Source of the DNA: Acetivibrio thermocellus ATCC 27405
Lineage (GTDB): Bacteria; Bacillota; Clostridia; Acetivibrionales; Acetivibrionaceae
DNA: 64,000 nucleotides
Reading direction: 5' to 3'
Assembly: GCF_000015865.1 (NCBI RefSeq)
Contig: NC_009012.1
Span: 682,001-746,000, forward strand
Shown here: positions 34,567 to 42,820 of the stretch, one piece after another
Layout of the letters: the number at the start of each line of letters is the position of its first letter
How positions within the stretch are numbered: the stretch's first letter is position 1
Translations under genes and position numbers: made by a program
The notes under the pieces: generated by a model
What the model saw: the letters and a program-made list of their open reading frames with translations, nothing else
What the model was told of the DNA's origin: nothing
Databases searched by the model: none

Positions 34567-34797
34567 TATAATAGGGATATGCGGGGAATTAACTGAGTTG
34601 ATGGGAGTAATTTTATTTATAAGTTTATGGTTTGTCGATGTGGAGTAGTGTAAAAAACCCGGGAGATCGACAAAGTTTGTTGATGTCTTTTAAATGCAGG
34701 ATTATGAATAGTTTGAGTGATTTTTTTTATTTTTGTTATTGATTTTTATTTTATATGTTATTAAAATAAAAAGTAGGAATTATGCAGGTTCTATGGG
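34567..34797 (+). promoter_or_regulatory. CRISPR leader (AT-rich)
   Basis: 231 bp without a gene. The 100 bp before the first repeat are very AT-rich (runs such as TGATTTTTTTTATTTTTG and TTATTAAAATAAAAAG). Placed as leader because repeats on this side are perfect while those at the far side are degenerate, so new spacers enter here. Confidence 0.75.
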
Positions 34798-37700
34798 GTT
34801 TGTATCGTACCTATGAGGAATTGAAACTAAAACAAAGGAGAATTGTAAATGGAAGAGTATTTGAGTTTGTATCGTACCTATGAGGAATTGAAACTCGAGA
34901 TTTTGGAACTTTGTTTCGCCATTCGTGTCTGTTTGTATCGTACCTATGAGGAATTGAAACTCCGCAAAAGAGAGAATCAGAGCTGCCGAACTTTTGGGTT
35001 TGTATCGTACCTATGAGGAATTGAAACCGTTTCATGGATTTGATAAGTTCAAGCTCTATCTCGTTTGTATCGTACCTATGAGGAATTGAAACGATTCAGA
35101 ATTGAACGAGTACGTCAAAAGCGTTTTAGTTTGTATCGTACCTATGAGGAATTGAAACTAGATGAATCAAATAGTTCTACTGGACTTGGAGATACGTTTG
35201 TATCGTACCTATGAGGAATTGAAACAAATAAATCTAAAGGGTATGCCACGGAAACGTTATAGTTTGTATCGTACCTATGAGGAATTGAAACCCCAGTATG
35301 GAATGGCGGTGGAACTGTCCGGCTGGCGTTTGTATCGTACCTATGAGGAATTGAAACGCTCTAACAGTAATTCAATTATTTTTGTATTCATTTGGTTTGT
35401 ATCGTACCTATGAGGAATTGAAACCGGGCCGCGCCTATTTGCGTGGGAACCCTTATAATGGGTTTGTATCGTACCTATGAGGAATTGAAACCGGTACTGC
35501 TGTGGTTATCGACGAGATTCAGACTTGGTTTGTATCGTACCTATGAGGAATTGAAACACGGAAGAGAAAAAACAGCAGATAATACAAAGCGTAGTTTGTA
35601 TCGTACCTATGAGGAATTGAAACTCATTTTTTTCACGACTATACAATATACCATTTGAATGTTTGTATCGTACCTATGAGGAATTGAAACTGGCTGAAAG
35701 GTTATAGGTTGAAAGGAAAAGTCCCGTTTGTATCGTACCTATGAGGAATTGAAACTCTCGCCTTTTGGCGGTTCGACTTTTGCCGCTTTCAGTTTGTATC
35801 GTACCTATGAGGAATTGAAACGAATTGCCATTAAGTCTTTGGTTTCTTGTCTTGTCATGGTTTGTATCGTACCTATGAGGAATTGAAACTACAGCCTCCT
35901 TCATGCTTTCTCCTTTGTCAGCTAACTCGTTTGTATCGTACCTATGAGGAATTGAAACAAGGCTGGGGTGAGTGGGTTGAAGTAACTGAAGGTGGTTTGT
36001 ATCGTACCTATGAGGAATTGAAACTTATTTTTAGTACATCATTATTTGTGATTATTCTAGTTTGTATCGTACCTATGAGGAATTGAAACTTTGCCCTCTC
36101 CTTTCTTTTCTTTTGTTTGTTTTAGCGGTTTGTATCGTACCTATGAGGAATTGAAACTCTACCTGTTGAGCTTCTGCCACTTGTTCTAATGTAGTTTGTA
36201 TCGTACCTATGAGGAATTGAAACTTGTTCAGCCTCCTTTCTAAGCAATGTAATAATAAAAGTTTGTATCGTACCTATGAGGAATTGAAACCTTCATAATC
36301 TTTAGGGGTTCTTTTCTTCATATTGTCAGTTTGTATCGTACCTATGAGGAATTGAAACCAACACTCCTTTATTATTATTATTTTTCCTGCCTTTGCGTTT
36401 GTATCGTACCTATGAGGAATTGAAACTAGGCCAGCTCGAAAAAGCCGGCGCTAACACCGAAGGTTTGTATCGTACCTATGAGGAATTGAAACATGTGCCT
36501 CCGCCACGTCTTGTTATAATTGCTTCTCCGTTTGTATCGTACCTATGAGGAATTGAAACCATTGTTGCCTAGTTGTTTTTTTGGTTTTACTTCTCGTTTG
36601 TATCGTACCTATGAGGAATTGAAACATTGCCGGCGGCAAGTCTGAAGCGCCAAGAATTGACCGGTTTGTATCGTACCTATGAGGAATTGAAACCCGACTG
36701 TTCGACGTAGACGTCGACAGGAGGAAAGAGTTTGTATCGTACCTATGAGGAATTGAAACCCTCAATTTCATTGTATCACCGGAGCAGTGGAGCGTGTTTG
36801 TATCGTACCTATGAGGAATTGAAACCAGAAAACTTGTGAACTACCGCCACTTATAGAAGTGGTTTGTATCGTACCTATGAGGAATTGAAACTTGTTCTGC
36901 AACTTATGTAAACATGTAGTCGAAATCAGTTTGTATCGTACCTATGAGGAATTGAAACTCTATCATGTAAACGGTAATGCATCCCATACACGCTGTTTGT
37001 ATCGTACCTATGAGGAATTGAAACCCTCAATTTCATTGTATCACCGGAGCAGTGGAGCGTGTTTGTATCGTACCTATGAGGAATTGAAACCCCCATTCAA
37101 GAATATTCACTGCTATTCACCTTCTTGTTTGTATCGTACCTATGAGGAATTGAAACATAATTCACATAATGCAAATGTTGCACAACTTGTATGTTTGTAT
37201 CGTACCTATGAGGAATTGAAACCCGATAAGCTAAATGTCAACGCTGAGATGATGGTAAGTTTGTATCGTACCTATGAGGAATTGAAACAATCCCGCCCAT
37301 TCGGCTGCCAAATCAATTCCGCCTAGTTTGTATCGTACCTATGAGGAATTGAAACTATTGTGCCAAGTGTCAATACTTTTGGTACAATATTTGTTTGTAT
37401 CGTACCTATGAGGAATTGAAACCAAATAGGTCTGTATACATTCTATTTTGATACAAGTGTTTGTATCGTACCTATGAGGAATTGAAACTTGTGGCGACAG
37501 AACGGCGGGAATAGCAGTGTTGCAGTTTGTATCGTACCTATGAGGAATTGAAACATGTAACCAGCCCATGTCATTTCTGCCTTTTGCTCCAGTTTGTATC
37601 GTACCTATGAGGAATTGAAACTGAGGATAAAATACAGCAGTACCTTGAACTAGATGAGGTTTGTATCGTACCTATGAGGAATTGAAACATAAAACTATTT

Positions 37701-38141
37701 ATTTTTTGTTCACAATTGTGTACAAGTTTGTATCGTACCTATGAGGAATTGAAACAAAAATGGCGAGCAGGCAGGGGGTTAGGACCCACCCGTTTGTATC
37801 GTACCTATGAGGAATTGAAATCGATTTTGCAGACAGTCAAGAAGATGCAGAACGTAAACGTTTGTATCGTACCTATGAGGAATTGAAATAGCAAATATTT
37901 GATTCAAAAATAGAGCTAGTAAAGAATGTTTGTATCGTACCTATGAGGAATTGAAATTTTTTCAAACTTGCAGGGCTAGGCAGGAATCGAACCTGCGTTT
38001 GTATCGTACCTATGAGGAATTGAAACTGACAAATTGATGCACGTTTGTATCGTACCTATGAGGAATTGAAACTCCCAAGTATCTGTATCTAACTGATATC
38101 CTGCAGGACCTGTGTGTATCGTACCTATGAAGAATTAGAAT
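34798..38141 (+). CRISPR. CRISPR array, 51 repeats / 50 spacers, type I-B-like repeat
   Basis: 30-nt repeat beginning GTTTGTATCGTACC and ending ATGAGGAATTGAAAC. I counted 51 repeat starts from 34798 to 38112. Repeats 46-48 end in T instead of C, and the last (38112-38141) has about five mismatches. Spacers are mostly 35-39 nt; spacer 49 (38027-38042) is only 16 nt. Spacers 30 (36760-36795) and 34 (37025-37060) are identical. The GAATTGAAAC end matches the 3' handle of Cas6-processed type I-B/III systems. No cas gene lies in the window, so processing and interference must be supplied from elsewhere. Confidence 0.98.
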
Positions 38142-38177
38142 TAAGTATCATCTATATAATCAAATCTATTATAACCA

Positions 38178-38338
38178 GTTTTTATCCTAGATGTAACAAA
38201 ATGAGACTTAATAACTATGATGCCTTTAGCAATTTCACTTCTGTTTCTGTTGCACTTGTGATGAATTGAAATAGGCAGTAAATCTAATTTTATTAATATA
38301 CAATAATTGCCTTTCTTGTACCTACAATAAAATAGGAC
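38178..38338 (+). repeat. Three decayed CRISPR repeats continuing the array in register
   Basis: Past the last recognisable repeat (start 38112), copies at 38178-38207, 38243-38272 and 38309-38338 match the repeat at about 20, 22 and 17 of 30 positions, at spacings of 66, 65 and 66 bp, the array's own period. They are read as fossil repeats with intervening 35-36-nt ex-spacers. The array end is cut off by the IS3 copy at 38370. Confidence 0.75.
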
Positions 38339-38605
38339 AAAGTTTTGCCTTTTGTCTTCATATACTTTATATAATGCTCCCCATTGTCAAGACAGTTTTT
38401 TAGCTTTTCTAAGTTAGCTCTCCTTTCTTAATTTTGTATAATCTTTACAACTGTGCACTCTGTTGGAGGATGTCAAGGGCGAGCGTAAGCGAGTTCATCT
38501 TGACCCTTGACATCCTTTGGACATATATCCTTTTGCTTTCCGGTCTGTTATGACAGACCGGCTGCCTTCCGGTGAGGACGGGGTTTGGGGCGGAGCCCCA
38601 TAATT

Positions 38606-39553
38606 CTATACAACTGCCAGTAGCTGGTCATATCCTCCAAAGTAATACTCTGCCGGTGTTTTGTAATCCAATGACTGGTGCGGTCTCCTATGGTTATAGT
38701 GCTCCACATATTCCTTTGTGATTTGTCTAAGTTGTTGTACCGTTTCGCACTCTTCAAGATAAAGTTTCTCCCACTTGTAGGAACGGAAAAATCGTTCTAT
38801 CCTTTGGTTGTCTAATGCTCTTCCTTTTCCATCCATAGATATTTTGATACCGTTATTTTTTAATAGATTTATGTAATCATCACTGGTAAACTGTGAGCCT
38901 TGATCACTGTTCATGATTTCAGGCTTGCCATATCGCTTTATGGCCTTTTGGATTGCTTCTATGACGAATGTCTTATCAAGAGTGTTTGATAGTTCAAACC
39001 CAACAATATACCGAGAATACCAGTCTATTATTGCAACCATATACATGAAACCGCGTTTCATTCGGCAATAGGTCACATCTATGGACCATACCTGATTAGG
39101 ATGATCAATTTTCAAGTTTCTCAACAGATATGGATACAAATTCTTACCATGTATTCGTTTGCTGAGGTTGGGGCCAGGACAGAATCCATGTATGCCCATT
39201 TCCCTCATATAACGCCGGGTCCGTTTTCGATTGATATGAATGTGATAATCCTTGTTCAATATACTTGTCATCCTGCGATAGCCATATTCCGGATAAGACG
39301 CGTAAATTTCATCAATGATACGCTTAATCAGGTATTCCTCCTCATTTACCGGAGCAGGCTTGTAGTAAACGCTCGTACGGTTTAAGCTCAATAATTCTGC
39401 TTGCCTTGTTATGCTGAGTTTCTTCTCATTTCTATCAATCATTTTCATGCGGTCTTCTCGGGATTTAGAGGAGGCCAGATTTTTTTTTAAGCCAGGCAAC
39501 CTCATATGATAGTTGACCAATTTGCTTAAGCAGTTCGTCCTTCTCCTTTTCAT
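38606..39553 (-). CDS. IS3-family transposase, OrfB (copy 1)
   Basis: Integrase-type DDE transposase frame. The catalytic domain has WSIDVTYCRM (first D), GFELSNTLDK, MNSDQGSQFTSDDY (second D) and DNQRIERFFRSYKWE (E), with an N-terminal HTH_21-like segment. 315 residues are open, but the true translation start is probably reached by frameshifting from orfA across a run of nine A (T on the plus strand). Same protein as copy 2. Confidence 0.93.
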   Translation of the reverse strand: MKRRRTNCLSKLVNYHMRLPGLKKNLASSKSREDRMKMIDRNEKKLSITRQAELLSLNRTSVYYKPAPVNEEEYLIKRIIDEIYASYPEYGYRRMTSILNKDYHIHINRKRTRRYMREMGIHGFCPGPNLSKRIHGKNLYPYLLRNLKIDHPNQVWSIDVTYCRMKRGFMYMVAIIDWYSRYIVGFELSNTLDKTFVIEAIQKAIKRYGKPEIMNSDQGSQFTSDDYINLLKNNGIKISMDGKGRALDNQRIERFFRSYKWEKLYLEECETVQQLRQITKEYVEHYNHRRPHQSLDYKTPAEYYFGGYDQLLAVV

Positions 39554-39758
39554 ACGACTGTTTGACCTTCTCTACTTCATCAGTTTCCTTGCTGAATACT
39601 CTGCCCGCATTGCTTATGAATTCAGTCTTCCAGCGACTTAACAGGTTTGGATGAATTCCATATTCTGCAGCAATCTCATTCAGCGTTCTTTCTCCCTTGA
39701 TGACCTCAATCACTATTTTTGCTTTTTGTTCAGGTGTAAAATGTTTTCTCTTTTCCAT
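39465..39758 (-). CDS. IS3-family OrfA, helix-turn-helix (copy 1)
   Basis: 97 residues, MEKRKHFTPEQKAKIVIEVI..., the HTH_Tnp_1 type DNA-binding domain (YGIHPNLLSRWKTEF) followed by a coiled-coil region. Differs from copy 2 by one residue (ERTLNE against ERTLSE). Overlaps orfB. Confidence 0.93.
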   Translation of the reverse strand: MEKRKHFTPEQKAKIVIEVIKGERTLNEIAAEYGIHPNLLSRWKTEFISNAGRVFSKETDEVEKVKQSYEKEKDELLKQIGQLSYEVAWLKKKSGLL

Positions 39759-39864
39759 AGTTCCATTCTAACTTATTTGGGCTGTTTTGTCTGTCTTAAT
39801 TTTTGGTATCATTATATTATGTCAATACGCTTTTTGAATTTACGACAAATTGTACAATACAATT

Positions 39865-41259
39865 GATAGTGTCTTGTCAAGTGGTGTAAAATGATTTCTA
39901 CTTTATCATTTTTTCACCTCATTTATGTAATAAAGCTACTGGTGTCAATGTAAATTCATTTATCGATGTAATCTTTGACATTGATTCCAGACTGAAATAG
40001 CGCCGCCCTACTTTCCATTCATCATTTTGTTCCATGAGCATTGCTCCTACCAATCGGATTACCGCCTCACGATTTGGAAATATGCAAACAACATCCGTTC
40101 GACGGCGAATTTCCCGGTTAAGTCTCTCAAGAGGATTGGTGGAGTGTATCTGTGCCCAATGCTCACGGGGAAAAGCCATATATGCCAGGATTTCTTCTTC
40201 TGCTTCTTCAAGAATTTTCATTGCTTTTGGAAAACGATTTTTAAGCTCATCTACTACATGCCTTAACTGTTCCCTCGCAGATTCCTGATCATTCTGGGCA
40301 AATATTGTCCGTATTATCGATGATACCATTCCCTGATAATGCTTTGGTACCTGGCTTAATACGTTTCTCATAAAATGTACACGGCATCTTTGCCATGCAC
40401 TTCCCGTTAAAATCTTCTTTATTGCAGCCTTCAGCCCTTCATGTGCATCACTGATTACAAGCCTTACACCTTTTAGACCCCTTGCTACCAGCCTTCTTAA
40501 AAACTCCTCCCAAAAAGCCCCGTCTTCACTCATCCCTACATCAAAACCTAATATTTCCCGTTCACCTTGTTGATTAACTCCTACTGCTATAACTAGTGCC
40601 ATACTGCATACCCTGCCTCCTTCCCGAACCTTGGGGAAAGTGGCATCAAGCCAAAGGTAAGGATATTCTCCTTCCAGTCTACGGTTTTTAAATTCTTCTA
40701 CAAATTCATCCAGTTGCTTACTGATTCTTGATACTTCGCTTTTATCAATCCCTTTCATTCCAAGAGCTTCTACAAGTTCATCCACCTTCCTGGTACTTAC
40801 TCCATGAACATAGGCTTCCTGAACTACATTCAATAATGCTTTCTCTGACATTTTCCTCGGTTCTAAAAGACTTGGAAAATAACTTCCGTGACGTAACTTG
40901 GGAATGCTTAACTGTAATGTTCCTACTCGAGTATCCCATTCTCTTAGACGATATCCATTGCGATAGTTGTTTCTATTATTATTTCTTTCATACTTTTCAG
41001 CACCTATTATTGATGTAACTTCCGCATCCATTAGGGCATTAATGAGTAATGTTAATGCTTCTTTTAAAAAATCTTTATCTTTTTCAACAACATACTTGCT
41101 AAGTTGTTCTAAAAGTGCCATTCTATTATTAGTAGCCACGGTATGACCTCCTCTACTTTATTTGTTTTGTTTTGTTTCCCTAATAAAGTAGAAATCATAT
41201 CGTGGTTACTTTTGTCAATTAGCCTCCACGAAATTTACACCACTACTTGAGACTATAAC
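39865..41259 (-). mobile_element. IS256-family element, copy A (1395 bp)
   Basis: Ends defined by comparison with the inverted copy B at 48436-49830; both are 1395 bp. Termini are imperfect inverted repeats around AGTGGTGTAAA and TTTACACCACTTG. The flanks AATTGTAC and AATTGTAT suggest an imperfect 8-bp target duplication. A 16-bp subterminal inverted repeat (ATGATTTCTACTTTAT and its complement) lies inside each end. Only 48 bp separate it from IS3 copy 1. Confidence 0.92.
39919..41139 (-). CDS. IS256/Mutator-family transposase (copy A)
   Basis: 406 residues, GTG start after GAGGAGGT. Mutator-type features: YLWLDATFPKVREGG (first D), VISDAHEGLKAAI (second D), WQRCRVHFMRNVL with the C-x-x-H pattern, and the late NPLERLNREIRRRTDVV (E). 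Protein identical to copy B by reading. Confidence 0.95.
   Translation of the reverse strand: MATNNRMALLEQLSKYVVEKDKDFLKEALTLLINALMDAEVTSIIGAEKYERNNNRNNYRNGYRLREWDTRVGTLQLSIPKLRHGSYFPSLLEPRKMSEKALLNVVQEAYVHGVSTRKVDELVEALGMKGIDKSEVSRISKQLDEFVEEFKNRRLEGEYPYLWLDATFPKVREGGRVCSMALVIAVGVNQQGEREILGFDVGMSEDGAFWEEFLRRLVARGLKGVRLVISDAHEGLKAAIKKILTGSAWQRCRVHFMRNVLSQVPKHYQGMVSSIIRTIFAQNDQESAREQLRHVVDELKNRFPKAMKILEEAEEEILAYMAFPREHWAQIHSTNPLERLNREIRRRTDVVCIFPNREAVIRLVGAMLMEQNDEWKVGRRYFSLESMSKITSINEFTLTPVALLHK

Positions 41260-41710: not shown

Positions 41711-42820
<1,110 letters not shown>

Follow-up and report, generated by a model that had tools for sequence, protein, structure and literature searches.

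We analysed a 64,000-nucleotide stretch of the Acetivibrio thermocellus ATCC 27405 genome (the window), which sits within one 3,843,301-bp contig. Besides a GH9-dockerin gene, the window contains a CRISPR array, array A, followed by three worn repeats and by insertion sequences (Table 1). A repeat was counted as callable with at least 24 of 30 matches to the consensus. Steps from repeat to repeat in array A are mostly 65–69 bp. The leader lies opposite the fossil tail, i.e., the DNA before position 34798 is conserved with the leaders of two sister arrays, array B (first repeat at genome position 1712609, 97 repeats) and array C (first repeat at 2741081, minus strand, 169 repeats). Judged from the ATTGAAAC end of the repeat and from prior knowledge, array A would be of an I-B-like subtype. 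The genome has two cas1 genes, one at 2741669–2742502 adjoining the array C leader and one at 3816446–3817321. Both are far from array A, which would therefore be served in trans. Elsewhere in the genome, a 64-bp stretch (2449058–2449121) has 78% identity to part of the leader. No repeat was matched beside it, and it is a possible orphan leader fragment.

Table 1. Array A, its decayed distal end and the neighbouring insertion sequences. Positions are those of the window unless stated otherwise; scores are matches to the 30-nt repeat consensus.
Feature	Position	Strand	Remarks
Leader of array A	34600..34797	+	~80% identity to DNA upstream of first repeat in arrays at genome positions 1712437 (+) and 2741246 (-)
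Callable array A	34798..38141	+	51 repeats, consensus GTTTGTATCGTACCTATGAGGAATTGAAAC, spacer median 36 nt
Final callable repeat	38112..38141	+	25/30
Ex-spacer 1	38142..38177	+	36 nt, GC 0.19
Fossil repeat 1	38178..38207	+	20/30
Ex-spacer 2	38208..38242	+	35 nt, GC 0.29
Fossil repeat 2	38243..38272	+	22/30; last 8 nt ATTGAAAT, as in main repeat type of array C
Ex-spacer 3	38273..38308	+	36 nt, GC 0.17
Fossil repeat 3	38309..38338	+	17/30, TTGTACCTA kept
End of recognisable tail	38339..38369	+	reaches insertion sequence
IS3-family copy	38370..39816	-	ends TATAATG...CATTATA; bounds by comparison with 7 other copies; domains rve, HTH_21, HTH_Tnp_1
Remnant between two insertion sequences	39820..39864	.	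45 bp; best in-register 30-mer 39827, 14/30
IS256/Mutator-type copy	39865..41259	-	bounds from near-identical genome copies; Transposase_mut E=2.7e-139
Transposase, HTH_38 + integrase-core domain	41750-42820		further downstream

One 36-nt spacer of array A is present twice, four units apart (36760–36795 and 37025–37060), which suggests duplication or repeated acquisition. Repeated spacers were also found in arrays B and C. Moreover, the 37-nt spacer at 34961–34997, in the third unit from the leader, is identical to the array C spacer with index 92, and another spacer is common to arrays B and C. Spacers shared between arrays may reflect either the same target or inter-array transfer. The spacer at 37958–37996 resembles the T-arm end of a tRNA and weakly matches the tRNA-Trp of an Arthrobacter phage; outside the array, it had no match in its own genome within three mismatches. 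The repeats at 37792–37957 form a block of three that end in T. In array C, there is a clean switch at the last base of the repeat (genome positions 2733418 and 2733353), where older units end in C and newer ones in T. These last-base switches in arrays C and A are dated repeat changes.

Past position 38141, an earlier note on this DNA had described three decayed repeats in register with array A. We reproduced their positions, their steps of 66, 65 and 66 bp and all of the scores. Repeat identity is above chance and drops away from the leader, from 30 of 30 in intact units to 25 in the final callable repeat and 20, 22 and 17 in the fossil units. The segments between these repeats, the ex-spacers, are spacer-sized with 36, 35 and 36 nt compared with the array median of 36 nt. 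The note had put random 30-mers at about 8 matches, and 8 was indeed the commonest score on the plus strand of the window outside the array; there, 30-mers scoring at least 17 were rare and a score of 20 was reached once. For a chain search, we started at the final callable repeat, allowed steps of 63–71 bp and summed the scores of three units. The best three-unit chain scored 59 and fell exactly at 38178, 38243 and 38309. The in-register score also withstood the shuffle check that the note had proposed, as none of 20,000 dinucleotide shuffles of 38142–38369 reached 59 (mean 36.6, SD 2.4, maximum 48). Real window DNA outside the array gave the same picture, with a chain maximum of 46 and no chain at 59 among 113,364 anchors on both strands. 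Compared singly with mononucleotide shuffles, the units had p < 0.0001 (38178), p < 0.0001 (38243) and p ~0.008 (38309). The fossil tail is hence confirmed as real.

Downstream, the IS3-family copy is flanked by a 3-bp duplication, TTA, at 38367–38369 and 39817–39819. Once this first insertion sequence is removed, the next unit would be due at about 39825–39827, near the place where the earlier note had seen a weaker candidate (39827). With the insertion sequence set aside, this 30-mer follows at a step of 68 bp with 14 of 30 matches, which is at chance level (p ~0.2), and the candidate was given up. Beyond the second insertion sequence we found no convincing in-register unit. The insertion sequences would have landed later, in unselected DNA downstream of the tail, so that anything further out would be broken up or decayed past recognition.

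We compared the distal end of array A with others. Array B closes with scores of 28, 16 and 16 of 30 and array C with 28, 24 and 19, each in register, and a similar late step in divergence was found on these sister arrays and on the arrays of several relatives. Our survey covered 15 distal ends from the own genome and from relatives, each scored with its own array consensus. Tail depth was counted with a threshold of p < 0.03 per unit, a simple criterion applied to a small survey. With three units, array A has the deepest tail of the 15 ends. Depth 2 was reached by array B, the units of which are each marginal (p ~0.026), and by one relative, G012, where the depth really reflects a mixed array. 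Array C and two relatives have depth 1 and the other nine ends have depth 0. G012 (L041:7–299) has three GGATTTATCGTACCTATGAGGAATTGAAAC repeats and, continuing in register at 65–66 bp, two copies of another repeat, GCTTGTGACCCGTGTATAGGGGATTGAAAC. Four relatives (G006, G004, G022 and G051) end otherwise, with an exact 5′ part of the repeat and then unrelated sequence. A common origin of tails A, B and C was rejected, since local alignments were at shuffle level (p of 0.16, 0.84 and 0.05, with B–C marginal). In a DNA search of 60 relatives, we found no tail homologue at the locus and short matches only (E ~3e-4 to 1e-2). A 26-mer from the tail was absent from the genome-contig collection searched.

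Divergence along array A rises in a step. The first 45 repeats are perfect; of the five that follow, three carry a single change, C to T at the last base. After these 50 near-perfect units, mismatches jump to 5, 10, 8 and 13, i.e., to Jukes–Cantor distances of 0.19, 0.44, 0.33 and 0.65 for the last four repeats. A model with age linear in position gave a log-likelihood of −158 and one with age squared −144, compared with −95 for two classes with a break after unit 50; this comparison leaves out age to the fourth or higher power, which is outside the rate grid. A simple clock fits the divergence profile poorly. The step reflects either a long acquisition pause or the removal of intermediate units.

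New CRISPR units join an array at the leader end through copying of the leader-proximal repeat. From this polarity, the tail units would be the oldest that survive, and it is reasonable to regard the ex-spacers, by their position, as the oldest immune record here. We propose with high confidence that 38112–38338 is the leader-distal remnant of the type I-B-like array A, stranded and decaying after its repeats diverged. The tail repeats have drifted neutrally by point mutation with their spacing unchanged, and the intact units nearer to the leader would keep turning over via recombination between identical repeats. Terminal repeats, once diverged, would drop out of recombination and be left stranded to decay further, which would account for the abrupt divergence step. 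Most likely, the tail is far older than the neighbouring units since its repeats, once diverged, would no longer be deletable by repeat–repeat recombination, a trapping step that we infer.

We favour removal of intermediate units over a pause because of what is published on spacer loss. Loss is attributed mainly to repeat misalignment (PMC11472070). Trailer-end spacers are lost less often owing to their differing last repeat, which is considered to escape such misalignment (PMC4466440, PMC11472070), and repeats that have degenerated were reported as insusceptible to recombination (PMC9458426). Mutations in repeats build up distally (PMC4869251). If there was a pause, the old array would be the tail itself, followed by a long stop in acquisition and a recent burst of 50 units, with neutral decay and no role for recombination. 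This would yield the same abrupt step, and it agrees with the first 45 repeats all being perfect. However, arrays B and C and the arrays of several relatives have a similar step at their last few units, which would then require a coincidence of independent pauses, whereas trapping predicts such steps generally. We consider the pause a serious but rather unlikely alternative.

Decay by point mutation is supported by the kind of changes found. Transitions account for 19 of the 31 mismatches in the three fossil units, compared with a fraction of 0.327 in 172 chance matches (binomial p = 0.001), and none of 4,000 shuffled chains reached this excess. Such an excess is what point mutation of true repeats should leave, and it hence argues for decay and not for mere resemblance. 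In the four decayed repeats, each derived from 11 GC and 19 AT sites, we counted 17 GC-to-AT and 13 AT-to-GC substitutions. The repeat substitutions therefore lean AT-ward, like the ex-spacers, whose GC content of 0.17–0.29 compares with an array mean of 0.41 (SD 0.11), as expected if this DNA was long unconstrained and drifted AT-ward.

Five of the six pairs of decayed units have 0–2 non-consensus states in common, so the units mostly look like separate, star-like decay from one consensus. The sixth pair, 38178 and 38309, has five (identical in 5 of 6 co-changed states), which exceeds simple independent decay, and an older repeat variant may contribute. Were an older, slightly different variant the ancestor of the tail, part of the mismatch would be ancestral and would not stem from post-integration decay. 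Array repeats do change over time, with G or T at position 5 between arrays and T or C as last base in blocks. Against such an ancestor speak the few states shared by the remaining fossil pairs and the tails of A, B and C, which were not alignable beyond the repeat. Moreover, no intact repeat with the shared states was found among the arrays surveyed. We therefore regard an older variant as an improbable explanation, less so than chance or a functional guide (see below) and more so than a pause.

Significance, register, transitions, mostly star-like decay and the sister tails together bear out the earlier claim that the array was formerly longer and that its distal end was worn by point mutation. 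The note had added that this erosion proceeded "rather than by deletion", which holds inside the tail only. Upstream, repeats pass in one jump from near-perfect to about 30% divergent, which implies either a pause or the loss of intermediate units. Furthermore, the spacer at 38027–38042, just upstream of the tail and between perfect repeats at 37997 and 38043, is only 16 nt long, with other spacers close to 36 nt, and this shows a deletion-like event close to the distal end.

The tail is probably without immune function today. With its ATTGAAAT end, the unit at 38243 could supply a crRNA 5′ handle; the downstream partner at 38309, however, is heavily worn. Similarity of the ex-spacers to all intact spacers of arrays A–C was at chance level. 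Compared with phage records, they gave one match (best E = 0.3) and no protospacer; as the whole of array A also gives weak phage matches only, the absence of an ex-spacer match is uninformative. Searches for small ORFs and promoter-like matches in and near the tail gave nothing convincing or above expectation. It is very unlikely that the degenerate repeats provide a functional CreTA-like guide, i.e., a crRNA-like RNA directing Cascade to a nearby promoter, even though degenerate paired repeats flank a spacer-sized insert beside the array and the unit at 38243 agrees with the consensus at 7 of its last 8 nt. Seed matches of the ex-spacers in the window were 8–10 nt long, within shuffled controls, and no long stretch was shared with the flanks. 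Both cas1 genes (2.74 and 3.82 Mb) are distant from array A, and four decayed units in a row, all in register, are more in keeping with the end of an array than with a module of one or two repeats. Chance likeness in AT-rich intergenic DNA, parts of the repeat being AT-rich as well, is refuted by the chain-score controls and by the transition excess, which it leaves unexplained, and deserves practically no weight.

Tentatively, stranding as proposed for array A may extend to a general age break at array ends, in which perfect units turn over through recombination and diverged units are trapped, so that tails would be durable and roughly datable by repeat divergence. If true, tails normally trimmed from annotations would preserve a far older record than any intact spacer does. 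Default callers drop decayed units, so that the oldest part of the record goes uncounted. The sharp divergence step is a simple, testable signature of how arrays lose units, and decayed tails could serve as slow markers in comparisons between strains.

The tail of array A resembles the degenerate trailer-end repeats described with CRISPRDetect (PMC4869251), where identity falls at the array period past the called end and ordinary callers miss the units. The default trim of CRISPRDetect retains repeats of >66% identity (PMC4869251), and the unit at 38309 (57%) would therefore normally be dropped. Compared with these described ends, array A has three units past its last callable repeat; the other 14 surveyed ends have 0–2. 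It is also similar to Streptococcus agalactiae CRISPR1 (PMC4466440), where the terminal repeat is 50–70% identical to the consensus and trailer-end spacers are retained. In contrast, S. agalactiae has a single terminal repeat that is degenerate mainly at its 3′ part, as in the endings of G006, G004, G022 and G051 (cf. PMC4466440), and the repeats of array A are worn throughout. Like array A, CreTA has degenerate repeats that no longer recombine and are hence stable (PMC9458426); unlike array A, where none was found, CreTA needs a guide that matches a nearby toxin promoter. Distal decay and protection from deletion are thus already published. The tail of array A is ordinary in kind but unusual in its length and clarity, and it leaves CRISPR knowledge unchanged in kind.
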